From Bradyrhizobium septentrionale (lineage in GTDB: Bacteria > Pseudomonadota > Alphaproteobacteria > Rhizobiales > Xanthobacteraceae), in contig NZ_CP088285.1 of assembly GCF_011516645.4 (NCBI RefSeq), positions 7,644,501 to 7,708,500 of the forward strand: a DNA stretch of 64,000 nucleotides, written 5' to 3'. The notes below the pieces were generated by a model that did no database searches, had not been told where the DNA came from, and worked only from the letters and a program-made list of their open reading frames with translations. A program made the position numbers and the translations under genes. Below are positions 9,825 to 18,286 of this stretch, one piece after another (position 1 is the first letter of the stretch; every line of letters starts with the position of its first letter).

Positions 9825-11051
9825 ATGTCCCAACAAGGTCCGGTCCTCATCGTATCGGCGGCAGCCAGGCCGCCGTTTGCCGCGGTCCTCGATGAGACCA
9901 AGCTGTTCCCGGTCGTGGTCACCGACTGGAACGAGGCCGGGCGGGCCATCGAGCAGGTCAAGCCGGCAGCGATCATCGCGGCCGCCGAGGGCGTCGATTT
10001 CGTCACCCTGTCCGGCCTCGCCAGGCGCGCCGCCGCCCGCGCGCCCTATCTGCCGCTGATCGCGGTCGATCCCGCGACCACCCTGCCCGACACCGCGATC
10101 GCATTCTTCCAGAAGCCGGGCCTGCCGGATCGCCTGACCGCCCGGCTCAACGCCAGCCTGCGCGTGCGCGCGCTGCATGCGACGGTGATGCGCCGCCTGG
10201 TTCCGCCGACACCGGTCGCACTGACGGATATCGATCCGGTCGGAGAAGCCACCGCGCTGTTGATCGGCCGCGGCGGCGCCTACCCGACGCTGTCGGTTGC
10301 GCTCGGCGAACGCGCCGGCGTGGTCGGGGCGCTCAGCATCGAGGCCGCAGCCAAGCATCTCAGCAACCGCGATATCGATGGCATCGTGCTGGCCGAAGGC
10401 TTCACACCGCGCGTGATGGATGCCTTCCTGACCGTCTTGACCGAGGACGTCCGCTTCCGCCCGTTGCCCGTGATCGTTGCATCGAGCGAGCTCACGCCGC
10501 GTTACGAACTGCCCAATCTCGAGATCGTCACGGCCGGGCCGACACGCGTCGCCGACATGGTGTTACCGATGATCCGGCAGCACGCTTTCGAAGCGCGGCT
10601 CGGCCGCATGCTGCGCGCGATCGACGCCAAGGGCCTGATCGATCCCCGCACCGGCCTGCTCACCAAGGCCGCGTTCGAGCGCGATTTTGCAACCGCCGTC
10701 TACCAGACCGCCGAGCGCGGCGGTGCGCTCTCGGTGGCGCGGTTCACTTTCGACAACGCGCAGCCCCGCGCGCAATTCGACGGCGCGCGGATCATCAGCC
10801 GGCTGATGCGTCAGACCGATTTCGGCGCGGTGCATGACGACCGCTCGATCGTGGTGGCGTTCGCCGGCACCGACCTGCGCAACGCGCAGGCGATCACGCG
10901 GCGGCTGGCAAGCGTGATGCGCCACACCCAGAACGGCCGCCGCGACGTCAGATCCGAGCCGGCCGTCAGCGTCGCAACGCTGCTGCCGACCGATTCCGCG
11001 ATGTCACTGCTCGGGCGCCTGTTCGGAGCGGCGGAGCGGGCGGCGTCGTAG
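9825..11051 (+). CDS. Protein with a degenerate GGDEF domain
   Basis: 408-residue protein. The N-terminal two thirds resemble tandem receiver-like folds without clear phospho-acceptor motifs. The C-terminal part starts IDPRTGLLTKAAFERDF, a typical entry to a GGDEF domain. The GGDEF loop itself reads VHDDRS, so cyclic-di-GMP synthesis is not expected. No EAL domain is present. The start is the ATG at 9825 (MSQQGPVLIV); an in-frame TTG at 9792 is less likely. It may be a signalling scaffold; no function is proven. Confidence 0.65.
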   Translation: MSQQGPVLIVSAAARPPFAAVLDETKLFPVVVTDWNEAGRAIEQVKPAAIIAAAEGVDFVTLSGLARRAAARAPYLPLIAVDPATTLPDTAIAFFQKPGLPDRLTARLNASLRVRALHATVMRRLVPPTPVALTDIDPVGEATALLIGRGGAYPTLSVALGERAGVVGALSIEAAAKHLSNRDIDGIVLAEGFTPRVMDAFLTVLTEDVRFRPLPVIVASSELTPRYELPNLEIVTAGPTRVADMVLPMIRQHAFEARLGRMLRAIDAKGLIDPRTGLLTKAAFERDFATAVYQTAERGGALSVARFTFDNAQPRAQFDGARIISRLMRQTDFGAVHDDRSIVVAFAGTDLRNAQAITRRLASVMRHTQNGRRDVRSEPAVSVATLLPTDSAMSLLGRLFGAAERAAS

Positions 11052-11253
11052 CAAGTTGTGTGCTGCTTATCAGCTCCCAAATCTTTCGAATATCGTCCGT
11101 AATCGCCGATCTCGGACAAGAAGCACGCTGATCTTCCGCCAGCGCGCCACACCGGATTGTGCAAGGTAAGCAGTGACAACGCATCTCGCGCACGCCAACG
11201 TGTTGCCACTTACAGCTGTTAAATTTTGACTCGCAACCCATTGGGCGCGACCC

Positions 11254-12090
11254 GTGCCGAAGATCTTTGTTAGCTACCGAAGGGACGATAGCGCCGCATC
11301 GGCGGGCCGCTTATGTGATCGGTTGAAGGGAGAGTTTGGCGAGGATCGCGTATTCATTGATGTCGATAACGTCCCTCTCGGCGCCGATTTCGTCAAGCTG
11401 ATCAGGGAGCGAGTTAAAGACTGCGATACGCTGCTCGCCGTCATTGGCCCGCAGTGGCTGGACATCCGTGATGAGCATGGATCTAGACGCCTCGAAGCAC
11501 CAGATGATTTCGTCCGTGTAGAGATCGGGACCGCGCTCCAGAGCAATATTCCGGTGGTGCCGATTTTGCTGGAAGGAGCCGCCATCCCAAGAGCGAGTAT
11601 TCTGCCGGATGATTTGAAACCCTTGACAGGCCTGAACGCGCTTAAGCTCAGGAATGAAAGCTTCAAGCAAGACGTGAATAAGTTGATCAAGCAACTGAGG
11701 CCAAGACGCTTTCCCCTCTACATTGCACTGGCGATCCTTCTGGCAGCCCTCGTTGGAGCGTTAGTTTACTATTCTTTGGTGCGAAGTTATCGTGGATCAA
11801 TTCTGCAACGGATATCCTGCGATCGGGAGACGACCCTTCAGTCGCATCCGTCAGCCACCAACTCGCCTAGAACCATCGTCTTCGTAAACACCAGATCCGA
11901 CCCAGTGCGGGTGAATTGGCTCGATGGGACCGGCAGTCGAAAGTTTTACGCAGAGCTTTCTTCGGGTCAGAGGTATGAACAGCCCACGTTTGAAGGTCAC
12001 CCTTGGCTCGTCACAGATGCGCAGGATCGCTGCATCGGAATCTATGTTCCGGGCGCCTCTGTAGTTGCATCGGCAGTCATTTCCGACTGA
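11254..12090 (+). CDS. TIR domain - transmembrane helix - VHL beta-like domain protein
   Basis: 278 residues. Residues 1-145 form a bacterial TIR domain (FVSYRRDD; DFVRVEIGTAL with candidate NADase glutamate E90). Residues 154-176 are a single membrane helix preceded by basic RPRR, predicting TIR inside and the C-terminus in the periplasm. Residues 204-274 match the von Hippel-Lindau beta domain. VHL landmarks N78, W88, Y98, S111, H115 and W117 align without gaps to N212, W222, Y232, T245, H249 and W251 (GHPWLVTDA here, GHLWLFRDA in human VHL). Starts at GTG. Base composition is more AT-rich than the flanking mfd and GGDEF genes, suggesting acquisition. The TIR call is firm; the VHL call rests on my own alignment. 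Ligand and role are unknown. Confidence 0.82.
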   Translation: MPKIFVSYRRDDSAASAGRLCDRLKGEFGEDRVFIDVDNVPLGADFVKLIRERVKDCDTLLAVIGPQWLDIRDEHGSRRLEAPDDFVRVEIGTALQSNIPVVPILLEGAAIPRASILPDDLKPLTGLNALKLRNESFKQDVNKLIKQLRPRRFPLYIALAILLAALVGALVYYSLVRSYRGSILQRISCDRETTLQSHPSATNSPRTIVFVNTRSDPVRVNWLDGTGSRKFYAELSSGQRYEQPTFEGHPWLVTDAQDRCIGIYVPGASVVASAVISD

Positions 12091-12105
12091 AAGTCTCATG
12101 GCCGC

Positions 12106-12144
12106 GGCAACATTGACTCTGGTCCTCCGGTACACAATGTTGCC
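12106..12144. terminator. Candidate bidirectional terminator hairpin
   Basis: GGCAACATTG (12106-12115) and CAATGTTGCC (12135-12144) form a perfect 10-base inverted repeat with a 19-base loop. It lies in the 66-base gap between the convergent TIR and mfd genes. There is no long T run, so it may act as an mRNA 3' stabiliser instead. Confidence 0.45.
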
Positions 12145-12156
12145 TGGTGCCTAACC

Positions 12157-15100
12157 CTAAGCCGCCTTCTTGCTCTCAGCGAGATTGGCGAGCTGGCGCA
12201 GGATCTCGGTGGTGCCGGCGAGCCGTTCTTCCGGCGTATCCCATTCCTGGAAGAACACCACCTTCATGTCGGGCCGCACCTTGGCGGCCTGGCCGTGCTG
12301 GCGGATGAATGACACCAGCCGCTCCGGATGCGCAAAGCTGTTGTCGCGGAACGCGATCACGGCGCCCTTCGGCCCGGCATCGACCTTCCCGACATTGGCC
12401 CGGCGGCAATAGGCCTTGATCGCGGCGACCTTGAAAAGATAGCGGACCTCGTCCGGCAGCACGCCGAAGCGATCGCGCATCTCGGCGGCGAAATTGTCGA
12501 TCTCCTCGTCGGTATCGAGATCGGCGAGCCGGCGATAGAGCGACAGCCGCACGCTGAGATCGTTGACGTAGTCCTCGGGGATCAGGACCGGCATGCCGAT
12601 CGTGATCTGCGGCGACCAGCGGTCGGCGGCGGGCTCGGCGACGCCGGCCTTGAGGTTGACGATCGCCTCCTCGAGCATCGACTGGTACAGCTCGAAGCCG
12701 ACTTCCTTGATGTGGCCGGACTGTTCCTCGCCCAACAGATTGCCGGCGCCGCGGATGTCGAGGTCGTGCGAGGCGAGCTGGAAGCCGGCCCCTAACGTCT
12801 CCAGCGATTGCAGCACCTTCAGCCGCCGCTCCGCTTGCGCGGTGATCTTCTGCTGCGCCGGCAAGGTGAACAACGCATAGGCGCGCAGCTTGGAGCGGCC
12901 GACGCGGCCGCGCAGCTGATAGAGCTGGGCGAGGCCGAACATGTCGGCGCGGTGCACGATCAGCGTGTTGGCGTTCGGAATGTCGAGGCCGGATTCGACG
13001 ATCGTGGTCGACAGCAGGATGTCGTATTTGCCGTCGTAGAACGCCGACATGATGTCCTCGATCACGGTCGGCGGCATCTGGCCGTGGGCGACCGCGACCT
13101 TCATCTCCGGCACGTTCTTGTCGAGGAAATCCTTGACGCCGGCGAGGTCCTCGATCCGCGGCACGACATAGAACGCCTGCCCGCCGCGATAGCGTTCGCG
13201 CAGCAGCGCCTCGCGGATCATCAGGGGATCGTGCGGCGCGACGAAGGTGCGCACCGCGAGGCGGTCGACCGGCGGCGAGGCAATGATCGAGAGCTCGCGG
13301 ACACCGGTCAAAGCCAATTGCAGGGTGCGCGGGATCGGGGTCGCCGACAGCGTCAGCACATGGACCTGGGCGCGGAGCTGCTTCAGCCGCTCCTTGTGGC
13401 TGACGCCGAAATGTTGCTCCTCGTCGACGATCAGAAGGCCGAGATCCTTGAACTTGATGGCCTTGCCGAGCAGCGCGTGGGTGCCGACGACGATGTCGAC
13501 CTGGCCATCTGTGAGCCCCTTCTTGACCTGGTTCAATTCCTTGGTCGAGACCAGCCGCGAGGCCTGCGCGATGTTGACCGGGAAGCCGCGGAAGCGCTCG
13601 GTGAAGGTCCTTGAGTGCTGACGCGCCAGCAGCGTGGTCGGGACCACGACCGCGACCTGCTTGCCCTCCAGCGCCACGGCGAATGCCGCGCGCAGCGCCA
13701 CCTCGGTCTTGCCGAAGCCGACGTCGCCGCAGATCAGCCGGTCCATCGGCCGGCCGATTTCGAGGTCCTTCAAGGTCGAGGTGATGGCACCGAGCTGATC
13801 CTCGGTCTCTTCGTATGGGAATCGCGCGCAGAACTCGTCATAGACATGCGGCTGCAGCGGGAATTTCGGCGCCTCGTGCAGCTGTCGTTCGGCGGCGATC
13901 TTGATCAGCTCGCCCGCGATCTCGCGGATGCGGTTCTTCAGCTTCGCCTTGCGCGCCTGCCAGCCGCCGCCGCCGAGACGGTCGAGCTCGACATTGGCGC
14001 TGTCGGAGCCGTAGCGCGACAGCAGCTCGATGTTCTCGACCGGGAGGAACAGCTTTGTCTCGGCGGCGTAATGCAGCTCAAGACAGTCATGCGGCGCGCC
14101 GGAGACTTCCAGCGTCTGCAGCCCGACGAAGCGGCCGATGCCGTGCTCGACATGCACGACGAGATCGCCGGTCGCCAGGCTCGTCACCTCCGAGATGAAA
14201 TTGTCGAGCTTGCGGCTCGCCTTGCGCGGCCGCACCAGGCGGTCGCCGAGAATGTCCTGCTCGCTGATGACGGCGAATTCATCGGTCTCGAAGCCGGATT
14301 CCATGCCGACCACGGCCAGCATGGTCTCGTTACGCGGCGTCGCCTGCACGATCCGCCAGGTATTGACGCTGGTCGTGTTGAGCAGCTTGTGGTCGCGCAG
14401 CATCGCGCCCATGCGGTCGCGCGAGCCTTCGCTCCACAGCGCGACGATGACCTTCTTGCGCTGCGACTGCAGCGCGCCGATGTGACCGACGACGGCTTCG
14501 AACACGTTGACGTTGCCGTCGGTGCGCTCCGGTGCGAAATTGCGGCCCTGCCGCGCGCCGGCGTCGAACATGTCGGGCGAGCCTTCCGGCACCGCGAACG
14601 GTGTCAGCCGCGCCAGCGGCGCGTCGCCGAGCAGTTTTGTCCATTCGGCCTCGGTCAGATAGAGCTGGTCCGGCGGCAGCGGCTTGTAAATCGCGCCGCT
14701 GCCCGGATGCTCCAGCGCCTCGCGCCGCGCCTCGTAATAGTCGGCGATTTGCGTGAAGCGCTCGCGCGCGGCGTCCTCGGTCTGCGGCTCGATCGCAACC
14801 GCTGCACCATCGAGATAGTCGAACAGTGTGTCCATCCGCTCCTGGAACAGCGGCAGCCAGTGCTCCATGCCGGGATGGCGCCGCCCCTCGGAGACCGCCT
14901 CATAGAGCTGGTCGTCGCGCTCCGGCGCGCCGAACGCTGCAACATAGCCCATGCGGAAGCGGCGGATGGTTTCGGTGGTGAGCTGGAATTCCGAGACCGG
15001 CACGAGGTCGAGCCCGCGCATGTCGAGCAGCGTGCGCTGGGTCTCGGCATCGAAAGCGCGGATCGATTCCAGGCTATCGCCGAAGAAGTCGAACCGCACC

Positions 15101-16177: not shown

Positions 16178-18286
16178 ATGCGCCCTAGTCTGCTCAATCC
16201 GCTGTTTGCCCAGGTCACGACCCTGCAAGGGGTCGGCCCGAAGCAGGACAAGCTATTGCGCTATCTGCTCGACCGCAGCGAGACGCCGCGGCTGGTCGAC
16301 CTCCTGCTGCATTTGCCGGCGAGCGTGATCGACCGCCGCGCGCGGCCGAAGATCCGCGATGCCGCGGTCGGAACCATGGTGACGCTGGAGGTCACCGTCG
16401 ACCGCCATCGTCCGCCACCGCCGCGCAATTCGCGCGCGCCCTACCTCGTCTATGCCAGCGACGACACCGGCGACGTCGTCCTGACCTTCTTCCGCGCGCA
16501 GCCCGGCTATGTCGAAAAACTGCTGCCGGTCGGCGAGAAGCGTTACGTCTCGGGCACACTGGCGATGTATGACGGCATCCCGCAGATCGTGCATCCCGAT
16601 CGCGTGGTCGATGAAGCCGGCTTTGCAAAACTGTCCGGTATCGACCCGGTCTATCCGCTGACCGAGGGGCTGGCGATCGGCTCGCTCCGCCGCGCGATCG
16701 CGCAGGCGCTGATCAAGCTGCCGGATCTGCCGGAATGGATCAGCCCCGAAGTGCTGCGCCGCTGCAGTTTCCCGCCGATCCGGGAGGCGCTGACCCGCGT
16801 CCATGTTCCGGTCGAGCTGACCGACATTCTGCCCGACGGCCCGTTCTGGTCGCGGCTCGCCTTCGACGAACTGCTGGCCGGCCAGCTCGCGCTAGCCCTG
16901 GTCCGCGCCACGCTGCGCCGCCCCGCCGGCGTCCGCAATGCCGGCGACGGCCATCTGCGCAAGAGGATCATCGACGCCCTGCCCTATGCCCTGACCAAGT
17001 CGCAACAGGAGGCGGTGGCCGCGATCATCGCAGACCTGCAACAGCCGGTGCGGATGCTGCGCCTCGTGCAGGGCGATGTCGGTTCCGGCAAGACCGTGGT
17101 GGCGCTGCTTGCCGCTGCCGCCGTCGCGGAAGCCGGCAAGCAGGCCGCGCTGATGGCGCCGACCGAAATTCTGGCGCGCCAGCACATCAAGACCATCGCG
17201 CCGCTCGCCGAACGCGCCGGCGTGCGGGTTGCGATCCTCACCGGCCGCGAGAAGGGCAAGGAGCGCCGCGAGCTCCTGGAGCGGCTCGAGGCCGGCGAAA
17301 TCGATCTCCTGGTCGGCACCCATGCGCTGATCCAGGACGACGTAATCTACAAGGCGCTGGCGCTCGCCGTGGTCGACGAGCAGCATCGTTTTGGCGTGCG
17401 CGAACGGCTTGCGCTGACCTCCAAGGGCGAGGCCGTCGACGTGCTGGTGCTGAGCGCGACCCCGATCCCGCGCACGCTGGTGCTGACATATTTTGGCGAC
17501 ATGGATGTCTCGGAGCTGCGCGAAAAGCCGGCCGGCCGCCAGCCGATCGACACCCGAGCGGTGCCGATGAGCCGGATCGAGGATGTGATGGACGGCGTTG
17601 GCCGCGCGCTCCATGCGGGCAAGCTGGTCTACTGGATCTGCCCGCTGGTCGATGAATCGGAGGCCGAAGGCACCGAGCATCTCACCAACGCGACCGAACG
17701 GTTCGAGTCGCTGCAAAAGCGGTTCGGCGATCGCGTCGGGCTGGTGCACGGCCAGATGAAGGGCACCGAGAAGGATCGCGTGATGGCGCAATTCGCCGCG
17801 CACGAGATCGGGCTCCTGGTCGCAACGACCGTCGTCGAGGTCGGCGTCGACGTGCCGGCCGCGACCATCATGGTGATCGAGAACGCCGAACGCTTTGGTC
17901 TGGCGCAATTGCATCAGCTGCGCGGCCGCATCGGCCGCGGCTCGGAAGCCTCGACCTGCCTGTTGCTCTACAAGGAGCCGCTCGGCGAGATGTCGAAGGC
18001 GCGGCTGAAAGTGATCCGCGAGACCACCGACGGCTTCCGGATCGCCGAGGAGGATCTGAAGCTGCGCGGCGAAGGCGACGTGCTCGGCATCCGCCAGAGC
18101 GGCCTGCCCGGCTACCACATCGCGCGCTCCGAGGTGCACGGCCAGCTGATCACCCAGGCCCGCGACGAGGCGCTGCGCATCATGAAGGACAATCCGAAGC
18201 TGAAGGGCGAGCGCGGCGAGGCGCTGCGCGCCCTGCTCTATCTCTACGAGCGCGACGAGGCCGTGCCGCTGATCGGCGCGGGGTGA
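16178..18286 (+). CDS. recG: ATP-dependent DNA helicase RecG
   Basis: 702-residue branch-migration helicase that remodels stalled forks and Holliday junctions. The N-terminal wedge/OB domain spans about residues 1-260. The helicase core has GDVGSGKTVVALLAA (Walker A), VVDEQHRFGV (DEQH box), ATPIPRTL and the HQLRGRIGRG motif. Length is usual for the family. It converges on the DUF502 gene with six bases between stops. Confidence 0.95.
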   Translation: MRPSLLNPLFAQVTTLQGVGPKQDKLLRYLLDRSETPRLVDLLLHLPASVIDRRARPKIRDAAVGTMVTLEVTVDRHRPPPPRNSRAPYLVYASDDTGDVVLTFFRAQPGYVEKLLPVGEKRYVSGTLAMYDGIPQIVHPDRVVDEAGFAKLSGIDPVYPLTEGLAIGSLRRAIAQALIKLPDLPEWISPEVLRRCSFPPIREALTRVHVPVELTDILPDGPFWSRLAFDELLAGQLALALVRATLRRPAGVRNAGDGHLRKRIIDALPYALTKSQQEAVAAIIADLQQPVRMLRLVQGDVGSGKTVVALLAAAAVAEAGKQAALMAPTEILARQHIKTIAPLAERAGVRVAILTGREKGKERRELLERLEAGEIDLLVGTHALIQDDVIYKALALAVVDEQHRFGVRERLALTSKGEAVDVLVLSATPIPRTLVLTYFGDMDVSELREKPAGRQPIDTRAVPMSRIEDVMDGVGRALHAGKLVYWICPLVDESEAEGTEHLTNATERFESLQKRFGDRVGLVHGQMKGTEKDRVMAQFAAHEIGLLVATTVVEVGVDVPAATIMVIENAERFGLAQLHQLRGRIGRGSEASTCLLLYKEPLGEMSKARLKVIRETTDGFRIAEEDLKLRGEGDVLGIRQSGLPGYHIARSEVHGQLITQARDEALRIMKDNPKLKGERGEALRALLYLYERDEAVPLIGAG

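Follow-up and report, generated by a model that had tools for sequence, protein, structure and literature searches.

What does a bacterial gene do when it joins a TIR domain to a domain of the VHL family? The question is raised by a gene in the window, the whole stretch of 64,000 nucleotides from Bradyrhizobium septentrionale that was analysed (features in Table 1). The preliminary description had read the gene product as TIR, membrane helix and VHL domain, and this architecture was confirmed: both domains passed their Pfam cut-offs (TIR_2, 47.2 bits against 28; VHL, PF01847, 26.9 bits against 21, over residues 205-257, in the profile search that had been proposed as a check), and the protein has a single hydrophobic stretch, residues 153-171, directly after RPRR. 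The starts of homologues fall at about the same place as the GTG, and three of them (P0006, P0007 and P0009) are likewise non-ATG. AlphaFold2 placed a helix at residues 155-178 and modelled the whole protein with a mean pLDDT of 92 and a pTM of 0.62, the latter giving modest confidence in the relative placement of the domains, whereas the last 100 residues alone reached a pLDDT of 90.9 and a pTM of 0.82. By the positive-inside rule, RPRR before the helix puts the TIR domain inside and the VHL domain outside; a layout of outer domain, one membrane helix and inner TIR is thus predicted from hydropathy, charge and the exported relatives described below.

Table 1. Coordinates of the TIR-TM-VHL gene and its features within the window
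Feature	Residues	Position	Strand	Basis or remark
TIR-TM-VHL gene		11254..12090	+	ORF, 278 aa, GTG start
TIR domain, SARM1-like	4-148	11263..11697	+	
E90, position of SARM1 E642	90	11521..11523	+	TIR alignment; invariant in 8 TIR-VHL proteins
Predicted membrane helix, RPRR before	~153-178	11710..11787	+	hydropathy; AF2 helix
C189, first Cys of conserved pair	189	11818..11820	+	possible disulfide
VHL beta domain	194-278	11833..12087	+	
W222 = VHL W88	222	11917..11919	+	pocket
Y232 = VHL Y98	232	11947..11949	+	pocket
T245 = VHL S111	245	11986..11988	+	Hyp contact in human VHL
H249 = VHL H115	249	11998..12000	+	Hyp contact in human VHL
W251 = VHL W117	251	12004..12006	+	pocket
C260, second Cys of pair	260	12031..12033	+	

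Human VHL aligned without gaps to residues 203-258 of the protein, which bears out the gapless alignment from N78 to W117 reported earlier. When the C-terminal 100 residues were searched as a single sequence against PDB sequences, all 24 of the 24 matches were VHL, at weak significance (best E 0.09). A profile built from 40 rows of bacterial VHL domains, the window protein's own included, reached human VHL at E 2e-12 over 61 gapless positions, and its sole non-VHL match had an E of 0.35. Structure prediction, the other check that had been suggested, gave a VHL beta-sandwich fold for the C-terminal part; the predicted fold spans the whole beta domain, the last residue (278) pairing with VHL 153. 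The domain thus shares with the human beta domain its fold, the gapless core alignment and five pocket positions (with Ser replaced by Thr once). It differs from human VHL in being fused to TIR through a membrane helix, in being probably periplasmic and in having a Cys pair; the elongin-C-binding alpha domain of pVHL, which we take to follow the beta domain, is absent, no residues being left after the beta domain.

Regarding the pocket itself, we assume the human numbering used here and take W88, Y98 and W117 to line it. All five pocket residues, W222, Y232, T245 (for Ser), H249 and W251, are present in the window protein; the pairs Y98/Y232, S111/T245, H115/H249 and W117/W251 had been assigned correctly, and W88/W222 is added here. 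H115 and S111 of human VHL are positioned for bonding to hydroxyproline 564 of HIF (PMC4848768). The five positions are invariant across the eight TIR-VHL proteins, and five of the only eight columns invariant in 28 VHL-only and TIR-linked rows are those of the pocket. In 59 distinct bacterial VHL domains obtained by searching family, order and genus, W was found at the W222 column in 51/59, T or S at T245 in 59/59, H at H249 in 52/59, W at W251 in 58/59, and Y or F at Y232 in 45/58 and 4/58, respectively; cysteine occupied the C189 and C260 columns in every domain of this set that covers them (51/51 and 57/57). Dropping rows more than 70% identical reduced 62 aligned rows to 43, five from an M56-linked family discussed below and 38 classed as outside that family, the absence of M56 being read from family membership and unchecked domain by domain. 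Among these 38, the pocket W/[YF]/[ST]/H/W was kept in 36, H249 was H in all, and the pocket columns ranked 3, 4, 8, 9 and 11 of 77 by conservation. Pocket conservation therefore exceeds chance (permutation p 6.5e-5), possibly by less than it appears, since the domains, which are part of the matches from the order and genus searches, were found with profiles containing the pocket columns. In the partly overlapping set from the VHL-profile search, the pocket was present in 120 of 124 domains (18 of 19 non-redundant).

With regard to the inner domain, the predicted TIR fold was closest to SARM1, with E90 aligned to E642, which we take to be the catalytic residue of SARM1. This glutamate is kept in all eight TIR-VHL proteins, and with a SARM1-like fold and a catalytic-site glutamate present the domain probably cleaves NAD. 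SARM1 itself carries ARM/SAM domains; here, in contrast, the TIR domain is membrane tethered, and an outer VHL domain takes their place.

Besides the window's own protein, seven TIR-VHL relatives (P0003-P0009) were found among 120 matches listed of 381. P0009 has no precomputed VHL label yet aligns throughout, and P0010 begins VHL-like and then diverges. Other relatives with a similar TIR end differently, some with the labels PF03781 (formylglycine-generating enzyme type), PF00595 and PF00027, the names of the latter two being presumed. P0008, which has VHL, and P0011, which has none and bears the source name 'lysozyme family protein', are identical at 167 of 216 residues across TIR, linker and TM, where their alignment ends, and P0011 and P0014 are identical at 172 of 190 and then differ. 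Within the eight TIR-VHL proteins, mean pairwise identity was 74% for TIR and 56% for VHL. The outer part has thus been swapped on a constant TIR-TM chassis, the pattern that a receptor family would show. Residues 178-278 alone matched one other protein, the VHL-only P0122. The VHL-profile search scored the best 8000 candidates and listed 120 matches of 197, all labelled PF01847 alone, so more TIR-VHL proteins may exist. In the survey of other genomes that the preliminary description had proposed, covering samples of 265 genus, 394 order and 289 class genomes (overlapping, order and class at E 1e-15, first 5 to 8 candidates scored per genome), a full-length match occurred in the own genome only.

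VHL domains as such are not rare in the host's order, where 66 of 397 genomes carry them, as do 11 of 198 in the family (own genome included in both). A hydrophobic N-terminal segment in 112 of 121 VHL proteins, together with the conserved Cys pair, points to export, and most VHL-only relatives look exported. The one bacterial VHL protein that we found in the open-licence literature, from Litorilituus sediminis, likewise has its VHL beta domain outside the cytoplasm; it differs in being soluble and secreted, with no transmembrane helix and, in the available text, no mention of TIR (PMC9002001). A Pfam scan of 20 VHL proteins found, above the respective cut-offs, CHAT in one, an M56/BlaR1-like peptidase in two and a ricin-type lectin in one, most having VHL alone. 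One CHAT-domain protein, cut at the start of its locus (L113:1-3783, +), has a C-terminal VHL domain with the five pocket residues. No family other than VHL was common to more than two of 20 VHL neighbourhoods (ORFs of at least 120 aa, blastp E 1e-15). Three VHL genes lie on plasmids (Nostoc, Calothrix and Jannaschia), annotated as hypothetical and with no TIR named nearby. The C-terminal 100 residues had no match in phage records, PHROGs gave no match, and two viral-contig loci matched TIR residues only, up to 186 and 102.

The locus was described as more AT-rich than its surroundings, and the base composition of the gene is indeed foreign, with a GC of 54.2% (GC3 0.595) against 69.0% and 66.9% in the neighbours (GC3 about 0.86 each). 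These neighbours are a 419-aa gene without a Pfam match and a 1246-aa mfd-like ORF (the names mfd and recG are presumed), and neither was recognised as a defence gene. The junction between the two (11051-12157) is variable among relatives. The mfd-like gene lies inside the retrieved junction sequence in 22 of 29 relatives, and in 18 of those 22 the alignment of the upstream gene and that of mfd lie 14-218 bp apart; in the other seven junctions no mfd match was found, and four examined further contain other ORFs. In two relatives (L152 and L153) an insert is followed by an additional match to 10895-11073 (about 80%). A promoter/terminator scan was empty, with no sigma-70-type promoter-like site found. 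ARAGORN called a tRNA-Trp at 16333-16425 (-) inside a recG-like ORF on the opposite strand (16178-18286), which is probably spurious.

How, then, might the protein work? The earlier proposal of a one-protein receptor remains the best reading, since outer domains vary on a near-constant TIR-TM chassis and most VHL-only relatives look exported. We envisage a single-gene, single-pass receptor of the inner membrane, whose periplasmic VHL beta domain would bind a ligand in the pocket equivalent to the human hydroxyproline pocket. Binding would gather the TIR domains on the cytoplasmic side, and the clustered, SARM1-like TIR would cleave NAD+ and thereby either arrest the cell or yield a nucleotide signal, presumably for protection. 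We hold this mechanism to be somewhat probable. Counted in its favour, besides the predicted folds, the kept E90 and pocket, the signs of export, the exchanged outer parts and the lower identity of VHL than of TIR, are the low GC with a short junction in 18 of 29 relatives, and the occurrence of VHL or VHL-like domains on CHAT and M56/BlaR1-like proteins as well. Against it stand the neighbours not recognised as defence genes, the small number of TIR-VHL relatives (seven among the 120 matches listed of 381), the missing sigma-70-type site and the modest domain placement (pTM 0.62); moreover, TIR might act as a scaffold, and the outer part might be an anchor and not a sensor.

The predicted layout is that of Toll-like receptors, which have an outer domain, one membrane helix and an inner TIR (PMC7075850). 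It is reversed here, with TIR N-terminal and VHL replacing the leucine-rich repeats. Bacterial TIR effectors also occur in fusion with recognition domains of the NPCBM or FGS type (PMC8195603); these proteins share the combination of TIR effector and recognition domain, whereas in the window protein that domain is VHL, in a single membrane-spanning protein. DGR-diversified lectin-type sensors have been tied to TIR and CHAT (PMC10907252). Effector-plus-sensor TIR proteins are thus already known, but we have not found VHL described as the sensor in that role: the whole word VHL is absent from the main text of PMC8195603, the main text of the TIR-domain survey PMC7075850 gave no match to it, and no description of a TIR-VHL fusion, or of bacterial VHL with TIR, was found in the open-licence literature as far as its text was available, in keeping with the preliminary description, whose author knew of no such described system. 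Should the receptor model be right, bacterial TIR immunity gains an outward-facing, single-gene receptor, and a direct test of bacterial VHL ligands becomes possible.

The ligand is where the earlier interpretation fared less well: the architecture, the homology to VHL, the fold and the conserved pocket stand, whereas hydroxyproline as ligand, which the pocket alone had suggested, was not supported, VHL-bearing genomes showing no PF13640 enrichment, a result that bears on a self-made ligand only. Of the genomes of the order, 66 bore VHL and 325 did not, and PF13640 genes occurred in 29 and 120 of them, respectively (Fisher p 0.33). For this comparison the samples of 397 (VHL) and 391 (PF13640) genomes were handled as a single set of 391, and some six genomes may thus belong to one sample only; 140 of the 149 PF13640 genomes had a match above the family cut-off. 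PF13640 is a broad family and was the only hydroxylase family tried. With a profile of ten mutually similar seeds, a single VHL neighbourhood among 20 proved to contain such a gene, and it had been picked on that account; in this preselected case (L238, G314:C15:26500-42000) two PF13640 (2OG-Fe(II) oxygenase) matches lie at a distance of about 7 kb from the VHL gene.

Envelope components or phage proteins are possible ligands instead. The pocket may be kept for a ligand in the cell's own envelope, be it a cell-wall, lipid or protein feature, and the protein may serve as an alarm for envelope damage or phage entry. We regard this as a tentative and somewhat doubtful reading. It agrees with the lysozyme-like source name for the outer part of P0011, with the export and wide occurrence of VHL proteins given above and with the lack of a link to PF13640 oxygenases, but the hydroxyproline-contact residues would need another reason for being kept.

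An outside source of hydroxyproline is also conceivable. The host carries NodA and is therefore likely a legume nodulator, and legume infection threads contain plant hydroxyproline-rich glycoproteins (PMC8146911). The VHL domain might thus read a hydroxyproline (or proline) peptide from outside, e.g. of plant glycoproteins in roots or infection threads, and gate TIR, in agreement with the five kept pocket residues, both hydroxyproline-contact ones among them. We nevertheless consider this unlikely. The PF13640 result speaks against it to the extent that it bears on a self-made ligand; no match to Pro_racemase (PF05544, hydroxyproline epimerase type) over the cut-off was found in the host, one lying below it; and the fusion, found in one of the 265 genus genomes searched, does not belong to the core symbiosis traits. 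Moreover, some VHL-bearing organisms have no plant link that we know of. The most far-reaching form of the idea, in which a periplasmic reader of hydroxyproline or a hydroxylated ligand switches on a TIR NADase as a one-protein Toll-like receptor, and the animal VHL pocket branches off from a much more ancient bacterial recognition domain, seems to us rather improbable.

Could the VHL domain instead be a structural or dimerisation module, its conserved residues serving folding? Several of the top-conserved columns are indeed cysteine, glycine or other positions outside the pocket. However, the M56-linked VHL-like domains have lost the W88, Y98 and H115 equivalents in 5/5 cases (T245 kept in 5/5, W251 in 4/5, the full pocket in 0/5) and are still recognisable in sequence, so the VHL fold seems not to need the pocket residues. 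It should be underlined that this contrast, drawn from sequence, was noticed in the data and not predicted, the M56 group having been set apart post hoc after the pocket loss was seen. A later check placed all seven pocket-less proteins that were retrieved in a single family, that of two M56 proteins; Pfam M56 was scanned on two of the seven. With the pocket widely kept while the fold seems able to manage without it, we find a purely structural role quite improbable. Most of the bacterial VHL domains examined retain the hydroxyproline pocket, and the M56 domains offer a pocket-less comparison group, which also bears on the origin of the animal oxygen-sensing VHL pocket. The seven pocket-less domains (L120-L123, L128, L129 and L131) are part of an M56/BlaR1-like membrane protein that is conserved in the host genus; the Pfam VHL model gave no match in the two scanned members, and further rows of the genus search match profile positions ~212-296 only, like this set.

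A TIR domain acting as a scaffold without enzyme activity is very doubtful as well, given that the fold resembles SARM1 and that 8/8 TIR-VHL proteins keep the glutamate, even though some TIR domains are adaptors (PMC7075850). Membership of Thoeris ThsB/ThcB was rejected, TIR similarity being all that is in common: PADLOC ThsB scored 33.5 bits and NCBIfam ThcB4 44.4 bits, each over ~67 residues of the TIR, the latter far under its cut-off of 220, and no recognised partner gene is adjacent. PF18185 had no match across the host genome, but its positive control likewise gave none. The host genome contains eight TIR_2 matches, the TIR-TM-VHL gene included, and three such matches lie within 8 kb of one another (G000:C2:473416-481115), possibly a defence locus.
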